Part shown: positions 23,444-29,616 of the stretch, piece by piece
Layout: every line of letters starts with the position of its first letter
How positions within the stretch are numbered: the first letter of the stretch is position 1
Assembly (NCBI RefSeq): GCF_000378145.1
Contig: NZ_KB899277.1
Location: forward strand, 186,001-250,000
Reading direction: 5' to 3'
DNA: 64,000 nucleotides
Source: Saccharibacillus kuerlensis DSM 22868
GTDB lineage: Bacteria; Bacillota; Bacilli; Paenibacillales; Paenibacillaceae
Position numbers and translations under genes: made by a program
The notes under the pieces: generated by a model
What the model saw: the letters and a program-made list of their open reading frames with translations, nothing else
What the model was told of the DNA's origin: nothing
Database searches by the model: none

Positions 23444-24199
23444 TTGGAGCAGAAAACTTCCATTTATGAAACGATCGAGGTGTGCTTGTTGGCCGGGAAA
23501 ATCATGCTGCAAAGCGGCGCCGAGACTTATCGGGTCGAGGATACAATGGGACGGATCGCTGCCGCCTTCGGTCTGACGGAGAGCCACAGCTATGTCACGC
23601 CGACCGCCCTGATCTTCTCGACCAGCGGTGAGCAGCCGGCCAAGCTGATCCGGATTGAAGAACGTACAACCGATTTAGACAAGATTGCCGTTGTCAATGC
23701 GATTTCCCGACGGATTGTGAGCGGCGAGCTGTCAGCACACGAAGCTAAAGCGCTGCTGATCGAAGCCGAAACGACTGCGTTTCATTATAAATTGCCTACT
23801 CAGGTTCTGGCAGCGGCTCTGACAAGTGCCTGCTTCCTTATTATGTTCGGCGGCATTTGGAGCGACTTTCCGGCCGCTTTTGCAGCCGGAGGCGCCGGCT
23901 TCGCTGCCTCGGTCTACCTGCACCGGATTGTACAGGTCAAATTCTTCGCCGAATTCTCGGCTGCGCTGCTGGTCGGCCTGCTTGGCCTTCTGTTTATTTG
24001 GGCCGGCTTGGGACGGGAGTTCGACCGGATCGCGGTCGGTTCGGTTATGCCTCTCGTACCCGGGCTGCTCATTACGAACGCGATCCGCGATCTGATGGCC
24101 GGCCATCTTGTGTCCGGCATTTCCAAAGGCGCCGATGCCTGCCTGACCGCTTTTGCGATCGGAGCGGGCATCGCCGTTGCACTGCTCTTTTTCCCTTAA
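23444..24199 (+). CDS. Threonine/serine exporter, large (ThrE_1/YjjP-type) subunit
   Basis: A 251-residue membrane protein. A soluble N-terminal part with LLAGKIMLQSGAETYRVEDTM and SYVTPTALIFS is followed by about five membrane helices ending in GSVMPLVPGLLITNAIRDLMAGHLVSGISKGADA. This is the ThrE_1 (DUF1212) family. In split systems it pairs with a small ThrE_2/YjjB subunit, encoded here 41 bp downstream, to export threonine, serine or other small acids. The start is a TTG at 23444 with AAGGAG ten bases upstream. The specific substrate is not visible from sequence. Confidence 0.88.
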   Translation: MEQKTSIYETIEVCLLAGKIMLQSGAETYRVEDTMGRIAAAFGLTESHSYVTPTALIFSTSGEQPAKLIRIEERTTDLDKIAVVNAISRRIVSGELSAHEAKALLIEAETTAFHYKLPTQVLAAALTSACFLIMFGGIWSDFPAAFAAGGAGFAASVYLHRIVQVKFFAEFSAALLVGLLGLLFIWAGLGREFDRIAVGSVMPLVPGLLITNAIRDLMAGHLVSGISKGADACLTAFAIGAGIAVALLFFP

Positions 24200-29285: not shown

Positions 29286-29326
29286 AAAAAGCCTACCCTC
29301 TTTCCATAAGAAAGAAGTGTAGGCTT
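29286..29326 (-). terminator. Attenuator terminator in the nasB leader
   Basis: Minus-strand AAGCCTAC (plus 29319-29326) pairs with GTAGGCTT (plus 29289-29296), followed by TTTTTA. The loop holds a smaller TCTTTC/GGAAAGA stem. It sits about 55 bases upstream of the nasB start codon inside the leader, so it must be read through for nas expression. Confidence 0.85.
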
Positions 29327-29361
29327 CATTGCCGATGCAAAGCGGTACTCCATTGTACCGC
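29319..29361 (-). promoter_or_regulatory. ANTAR-type double-hairpin antitermination element of nasBC
   Basis: On the minus strand the first hairpin is GCGGTAC-AATGGA-GTACCGC (29361-29342) and the second is GGC-AATGAA-GCC (29333-29322), 8 bases apart. Both loops are six bases with A at position 1 and G at position 4, the published signature of ANTAR-protein RNA targets. The second hairpin shares bases with the terminator arm at 29319-29326, so protein binding would prevent termination. The second stem is short (3 bp plus mismatch). Confidence 0.72.
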
Positions 29362-29373
29362 GTGACTAATCAC

Positions 29374-29402
29374 AGATTAGGGGATTATCGTTTCAAAGTC
29401 AA
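29374..29402 (-). promoter_or_regulatory. Predicted nasB promoter
   Basis: Minus-strand TTGACT (plus 29397-29402), 17-bp spacer and TAATCT (plus 29374-29379). Transcription would start near 29367, six bases before the first leader hairpin. The -10 box is poor, as expected for an activated promoter, and the GlnR/TnrA box at 29409 is centred about 50 bp upstream. Confidence 0.5.
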
Positions 29403-29408
29403 CAATTA

Positions 29409-29425
29409 CGTCAGATTATATAACA
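29409..29425. promoter_or_regulatory. GlnR/TnrA box (activator position for nasB)
   Basis: CGTCA-GATTATA-TAACA matches TGTNA-N7-TNACA with one mismatch, at the first base. Its centre is near -50 relative to the predicted nasB start. TnrA-activated promoters of B. subtilis (nrgAB, nasB) have their site at about -49. Confidence 0.7.
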
Positions 29426-29481
29426 TAAATTTCATTGAAATGCTGATGAACAGCTTTATTTTTCAGAAATAAAAATTTTTA

Positions 29482-29498
29482 AGTCAATTATATTGACA
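29482..29498. promoter_or_regulatory. GlnR/TnrA box overlapping the nasA -35
   Basis: AGTCA-ATTATAT-TGACA matches TGTNA-N7-TNACA with one mismatch, at the first base. Its right half is the TTGACA -35 element of the nasA promoter, so occupancy would block RNA polymerase. It lies 73 bp (seven helical turns) from the other box. Confidence 0.7.
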
Positions 29499-29521
29499 TA
29501 GGGCACTTAAATTTTTATACT
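29493..29521 (+). promoter_or_regulatory. Sigma-A promoter of nasA
   Basis: TTGACA at 29493-29498, a 17-bp spacer and TATACT at 29516-29521. The predicted start near 29528 gives a 130-base leader that contains the ANTAR-type element and an attenuator. Confidence 0.8.
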
Positions 29522-29538
29522 TTGCTTAATCAAAGGCC

Positions 29539-29576
29539 GCACAATGATGTGCAGTCCCAATCCGGCAACGAGGCCG
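29539..29576 (+). promoter_or_regulatory. ANTAR-type double-hairpin antitermination element of nasA
   Basis: First hairpin GCAC-AATGAT-GTGC (29539-29552), ten-base linker, second hairpin CGGC-AACGAG-GCCG (29563-29576). Both six-base loops have A at position 1 and G at position 4. The 3' arm of the second hairpin is part of the 5' arm of the terminator at 29572, so the two structures are mutually exclusive. Confidence 0.78.
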
Positions 29577-29616
29577 CGGTTCGTTCTTATTTCTAAGGAC
29601 GAACTGCGGCCTTTTC
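29572..29616 (+). terminator. Attenuator terminator in the nasA leader
   Basis: A 17-base arm, GGCCGCGGTTCGTTCTT (29572-29588), pairs with AAGGACGAACTGCGGCC (29595-29611) with one G-T pair, followed by TTTT. It lies 42 bases upstream of the nasA start codon, between promoter and gene. Confidence 0.88.

Follow-up and report, generated by a model that had tools for sequence, protein, structure and literature searches.

In a wide range of bacteria, RNA elements of the ANTAR type have been described upstream of genes for nitrite reductase and for nitrate/nitrite transporters (Ramesh 2012, PMC3369931), and the kind of RNA element that concerns us here is already known. The EutV antiterminators of Enterococcus faecalis (PMC3369931) combine two hairpins, six-base loops with A at position 1 and G at position 4, and a second hairpin that lies over the terminator. 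In the NasT-NasS system of Paracoccus denitrificans and Azotobacter vinelandii (PMC3795266), a receiver-like ANTAR protein with a partner encoded in the same operon acts on nitrate assimilation targets that carry a leader RNA. NasR of Klebsiella controls a nitrate assimilation operon through ANTAR antitermination and has a fused, nitrate-sensing NIT domain (PMC3369931, PMC3795266), while AmiR of Pseudomonas, also receiver-like, is an ANTAR protein whose co-encoded partner AmiC binds a small molecule (PMC3795266). Here we describe the region between the divergent genes nasB and nasA in a 64,000-nucleotide stretch of the Saccharibacillus kuerlensis DSM 22868 genome (contig NZ_KB899277.1, positions 186,001 to 250,000; hereafter, the window). 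It holds two leaders that, together with a third upstream of nirB-nirD-cobA, are very probably ANTAR-type antiterminators read by the single ANTAR protein of this genome.

Direct reading of the sequence places two small hairpins, P1 and P2, and an intrinsic terminator on each strand, in the nasB leader (minus strand) and in the nasA leader (plus strand) (Table 1). All four six-base loops have A at position 1 and G at position 4, which confirms what an initial annotation of this DNA had claimed. Its further claim that P2 shares bases with an intrinsic terminator is borne out in both leaders by folding energies: the 3' arm of P2 is part of the 5' arm of the terminator, and none of 200 shuffled sequences folds to an energy as low as that of either terminator. 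The linker between P1 and P2 is 8 and 10 nucleotides in the nasB and nasA leaders, respectively, compared with 5-12 in the eut elements (PMC3369931), with which these leaders share their hairpins, loops and P2-terminator overlap; the genes that follow serve nitrate utilization here and ethanolamine utilization there. When each whole leader is folded without protein, the terminator forms and P2 does not, as would be expected if a protein stabilizes the antiterminator. In the predicted fold of the nasA P1, an A-U pair narrows the loop to four bases.

A scan of the window for two such hairpins 4-20 nucleotides apart returned four places, and only the nasB and nasA pairs are followed by a T run. 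A simple terminator scan, whose rule allows stems of at most 20 pairs and asks for 5 T in 8 bases, listed neither leader terminator. Rfam gave no match at gathering level in the window; permissive Rfam matches in the 1.1-kb region were to microRNA and small RNA families, lay mostly on the terminator hairpins, and were taken as chance.

The initial annotation had named a covariance-model search and a search for a genomic ANTAR protein as checks. Both agree with the ANTAR reading. Our covariance model, R1, was built from 24 elements that include the three S. kuerlensis leaders themselves; in the whole-genome scan it was applied to 150 of the 2330 candidates from a first look. It found three strong matches, at nasB (52.7 bits), nirB (46.0 bits) and nasA (41.4 bits), with the next at 24.6 bits. 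The 4.70-Mb genome, assembled in 56 contigs, encodes one ANTAR domain (PF03861, 70.4 bits; contig C16, 6407-6568), on a contig other than that of nasB and nasA, so the regulator gene does lie outside the window, as had been stated. This gene, whose closest named relatives come from Saccharibacillus, is divergent from nirB-nirD-cobA. Its product has 198 residues and matches Pfam in the ANTAR domain only. The predicted fold is the two-domain fold of EutV and matches AmiR, and the ANTAR domain matches 4akk, a point in common with NasR.

The regulator and the element occur together across relatives. Among 197 genomes of the family, this ANTAR type is present in 126 (best E ≤ 1e-30) and the element in 126 (E ≤ 1e-3); 124 genomes have both and 69 have neither. 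We give these as counts without a probability because the genomes are related. As a separate observation, two genomes of genus g7 encode a second, divergent ANTAR protein (L225, 5125-5559; L226, 5126-5629) with no nas or nir query genes adjoining it.

We also ran a hairpin-pair finder, which required A at position 1 and G at position 4 of the loops and allowed linkers of 3-20 nucleotides, on the stretch of at most 500 bases that precedes nirB-, nasA- and nasB-type genes. With regions shorter than 250 bases left out, the sample comprised 220 regions, or 202 without identical ones. If more than one candidate was present in a region, we kept the one with the highest score, which introduces a slight lean to longer stems. 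The element was found upstream of nirB in 109/124 regions, of nasA in 33/43 and of nasB in 19/35, against 0.65, 0.05 and 0.15 regions expected from shuffled sequences, and these counts were unchanged when regions with identical 250 gene-proximal bases were dropped. Linkers of 6-10 nucleotides occur in 140 of the 161 elements, and loop position 2, which the finder left free, is A in 129/139 and 132/139 elements. The low nasB count is partly due to a moeA-like molybdopterin gene that separates nasB from the leader in seven or more loci (L060, 1278-2606 on the plus strand and checked with Pfam; L061, L064, L067, L078, L081 and L083). Behind such a leader, a moeA-like gene would bring cofactor supply under the same switch.

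The arrangement itself is conserved. With model R1 at E ≤ 0.1, 40 nas loci chosen from NasB matches divide into 26 with a divergent pair, 7 with a single match and 7 with none, and the pair is present in 26 of 27 divergent nasA/nasB-type loci, a few of its members being weak or partial. Divergent leaders are common in Paenibacillaceae and not peculiar to the S. kuerlensis genome. The initial annotation had proposed that one divergent pair of attenuators controls both operons and may be undescribed; the pair is real, but nirB has a third leader and the arrangement is widespread in this family.

Covariation supports the P1 stem. In the model set of 24 diverse elements, from which the L042 (nasA) element had been dropped for its wrong register (24 of 25 kept; it was retained among the 139 distinct elements), P1 has 52 cells in which both sides of a pair are changed, compared with 19.7 in shuffles. 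The covariation score of P1 is 0.496 versus 0.170 for shuffles, and none of 500 shuffles reaches it. The finder placed no demand on outer P1 pairs 5, 6 and 7; they are standard in 123, 122 and 92 of the 139 distinct elements, against shuffled means of 77, 74 and 66. The covariation anticipated for these stems is thus seen in P1, but not in P2, whose core pairs do not vary.

Several observations weigh against our reading. The three P2 core pairs are invariant in the 24-element alignment (A5), leaving P2 conserved without covariation support, and 32/139 elements have a standard fourth P2 pair, under the shuffled mean of 37. The S. kuerlensis nirB terminator is long, its stem is not continuous and its T run is poor, and some partner matches in the divergent loci are weak, with E up to 0.1. 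Two genomes, G104 and G160, have the regulator and no element at E ≤ 1e-3; G005 has an element (5e-4) and a different ANTAR type; and G070 keeps both nas leaders in a genome in which no ANTAR domain was found at E ≤ 1e-3. The intact nas leaders of G070 (locus L085) may reflect a recent loss or an assembly gap. Finally, R1 was trained partly on the co-occurrence genomes, which are related, and the counts are not independent. ANTAR antitermination is nevertheless well supported by the anatomy of the leaders, their conservation, the covariation of P1 and the co-occurrence with the regulator; the covariance model and the genomic ANTAR gene agree with it, in keeping with the ANTAR-type antitermination first proposed for these leaders.

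From these features we infer how the switch would work, from RNA binding and antitermination to the signal and an added GlnR layer. Without a signal, RNA polymerase would halt at the terminator of each leader. With a signal, most likely nitrate (as the target genes suggest) or nitrite, the ANTAR protein, probably as a dimer, would grip the two A--G-- loops. P2 would then occupy the 5' arm of the terminator, and the transporter gene would be transcribed jointly with those for nitrate and nitrite reductase. General nitrogen control probably forms a further layer, exerted through the GlnR-like boxes at the promoters. If true, a large bacterial family whose members live in soil or with plants would have a layer of antitermination in its control of nitrate assimilation.

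We checked three ANTAR inputs, a NIT domain, a NasS-like PF13379 protein and a conserved phosphoacceptor, and none is evident in S. kuerlensis. NasS belongs to Pfam family PF13379. No match to this family was found in the S. kuerlensis genome at E ≤ 1e-3, whereas 12 of 14 control genomes match, and on this lack of a match a NasS of this family was rejected as sensor, a NasS of another family being untouched by the search. The Pfam search likewise found no NIT domain fused to ANTAR in the ANTAR protein, in contrast to NasR. NIT was rejected as sensor, the sole NIT match of the genome being a chemoreceptor-like protein (L003, 1213-3417, plus strand), which is possibly a nitrate taxis receptor. 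The phosphoacceptor column, aligned by eye against the receiver consensus, has alanine in S. kuerlensis and aspartate in 4/36 rows of alignment A1. Cys82 of the ANTAR protein is invariant, and the receiver-like domain might take a redox or nitrogen-oxide input. The S. kuerlensis regulator differs from EutV in having no conserved phosphoacceptor aspartate and in having nirB and a TrpD-like gene, not a kinase gene, as neighbors. It differs from NasT-NasS in its TrpD2-like neighbor and in its three separate leaders, two of them divergent, and from AmiR-AmiC in that the neighbor has a TrpD fold. With none of the checked inputs in evidence, the TrpD2-type protein is a candidate sensor or partner.

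The TrpD2/YbiB-like gene directly follows the ANTAR gene in the best 80 of 248 named relatives, with a 4-base overlap in 23 of these and a spacing of 0-20 bases in 50 (start codons as chosen by us). Of seven loci from other families, five show the same gene order; these five are nas or cobA loci in two families. Fold comparison assigns the neighbor a TrpD fold, and in sequence it matches YbiB structures (4muo, 7.4e-18), although canonical TrpD enzymes score higher in the same search (9ucw, 1.5e-43). The 50 fold rows listed for the neighbor do not include YbiB, which is no evidence against kinship with YbiB. The GTGGD motif of TrpD enzymes binds phosphoribosyl pyrophosphate, and the stretch aligned to it is altered in the neighbor, which suggests that the protein may have no phosphoribosyltransferase activity. 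TrpD2/YbiB proteins are marked by the TrpD fold, by a lack of phosphoribosyltransferase activity and by binding of nucleic acids irrespective of sequence. The fold, the YbiB match and the altered stretch are points of likeness to TrpD2/YbiB (PMC10123104). E. coli ybiB, by comparison, lies in a LexA-regulated operon with dinG, and the word nitrate is absent from PMC10123104.

We propose, tentatively, that in Paenibacillaceae and other Bacilli a TrpD2-fold partner controls the nitrate antiterminator, taking the position that NasS, a NIT domain or a kinase has in other systems. Such a former phosphoribosyltransferase might sense nitrate, nitrite or a nitrogen metabolite and hold or deliver the ANTAR protein. 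If true, ANTAR proteins would gain a new type of partner, and a TrpD2-type protein a task in regulation. The TrpD-like protein may instead be a regular enzyme of tryptophan synthesis or a passenger, without any role in nitrate control. Its TrpD fold fits this reading, and so does its distribution: the protein is missing from 30 of 126 genomes with the same ANTAR type (E ≤ 1e-20), and in a 31st, G097, its match is not beside the ANTAR gene. Its absence from those genomes implies that it is dispensable in some lineages. Nine TrpD-less rows of the family form one clade with support 100/99 in a tree with long branches, which we used for this clade alone; the tree covers only nine of the family's TrpD-less genomes and excludes the TrpD-less rows L043 and L044, the broken row L221, rows L223, L227 and L228, and 13 near copies. 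Against a passenger stand the altered GTGGD-aligned stretch, the close or overlapping position directly behind the ANTAR gene in the best 80 of 248 relatives, and the recurrence of this order at nas or cobA loci, five in all, from two further families. Tryptophan biosynthesis was rejected as the job of this gene, since the real trpD of the genome lies elsewhere, on C5 (404 bits versus 87 for the neighbor).

Two points are new: a nitrate regulon with three leaders, two of which form a conserved divergent pair, and an ANTAR regulator that has no evident input of a known sort and is accompanied by a TrpD2-like protein. Among the matches listed in a search of the open-licence literature, supplements being outside its scope, no publication deals with an ANTAR-TrpD2 pair, or with nas or nir genes of Paenibacillaceae as ANTAR targets.

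The promoters bear on a second alternative. Boxes that resemble TGTNAN7TNACA, the GlnR/TnrA consensus, are present in both intergenic regions. Two of them, AGTCAATTATATTGACA and CGTCAGATTATATAACA, lie between the nasB and nasA leaders, and the region that separates nirB from the ANTAR gene has a perfect match, TGTTATAAAAAGTAACA (L002, 5896-5912). Sites with a match like that of AGTCAATTATATTGACA number 15 in the window. In Paenibacillus polymyxa WLY78, nasA and nasD1 are divergent and 353 bp apart, GlnR binding has been measured, and GlnR binds the nasA, nasD1 and nasD2EF promoters; a similar GlnR-like site is printed for P. polymyxa nasA (PMC9948412). That report treats only promoter control by GlnR, and the words antitermin-, ANTAR and terminator are absent from its main text. 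By analogy, the S. kuerlensis leaders might terminate constitutively or answer to a non-ANTAR input, with nitrogen control exerted by GlnR at the promoters alone. We consider this very unlikely given the exact loop signature, the covariation of P1 and the tight co-occurrence with one ANTAR type, and GlnR control is in any case compatible with antitermination.

That the hairpins are mere chance inverted repeats around two terminators is hardly conceivable, for although the P2 stems are short (3-4 pairs) and a similar weak match lies within an unrelated gene, fewer than one region per class is expected in shuffles where 109, 33 and 19 were observed, the pair recurs in nearly all divergent loci, and P1 covaries. 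That weak match (23896-23936, minus strand, 24.6 bits) is antisense within an exporter-like gene, as judged from the open reading frame; it is probably due to chance and was set aside.

Table 1. Features of the nasB-nasA region and the third leader. Positions are those of the window unless a contig is named; hairpin loops are in square brackets.
Feature	Position	Strand	Basis
nasB P1 hairpin, GCGGTAC[AATGGA]GTACCGC	29342..29361	-	read directly; model match 52.7 bits for nasB leader
nasB P2 hairpin, GGC[AATGAA]GCC	29322..29333	-	3' arm inside terminator
nasB leader intrinsic terminator and T run	about 29289..29326	-	-22.0 kcal/mol, z -6.8
nasA P1 hairpin, GCAC[AATGAT]GTGC	29539..29552	+	read directly; model match 41.4 bits for nasA leader
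nasA P2 hairpin, CGGC[AACGAG]GCCG	29563..29576	+	3' arm inside terminator
nasA leader intrinsic terminator and T run	about 29570..29613	+	-34.7 kcal/mol, z -8.0
Third leader of the same kind, upstream of nirB	C16 5787-5688	-	hairpin-pair scan; model match 46.0 bits
nasA sigma-A-type promoter, TTGACA, 17, TATACT	29493..29521	+	promoter scan, 11/12 matches
Possible weak nasB promoter, TTGACT, 17, TAATCT	29374..29402	-	by eye only; not in promoter scan
GlnR/TnrA-like box AGTCAATTATATTGACA	29482..29498	.	1 mismatch to TGTNAN7TNACA; overlaps nasA -35 box
Second GlnR/TnrA-like box CGTCAGATTATATAACA	29409..29425	.	1 mismatch to TGTNAN7TNACA
nasC, assimilatory nitrate reductase catalytic subunit, 727 residues	24783..26966	-	NF047855 1073.4 bits, cut-off 1100
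nasB, NirB-like electron-transfer subunit of assimilatory nitrate reductase (putative), 747 residues	26991..29234	-	TIGR02374 622.9 bits, cut-off 578.35
nasA, NarK-family nitrate/nitrite transporter, 417 residues	29658..30911	+	TIGR00886 288.9 bits, cut-off 311.7

The candidate nasB promoter ends approximately 12 bases before P1. A Pfam search of the NasB protein did not find the siroheme-type nitrite reductase domain, and we assign NasB its role as the electron-transfer subunit because nasC adjoins it.
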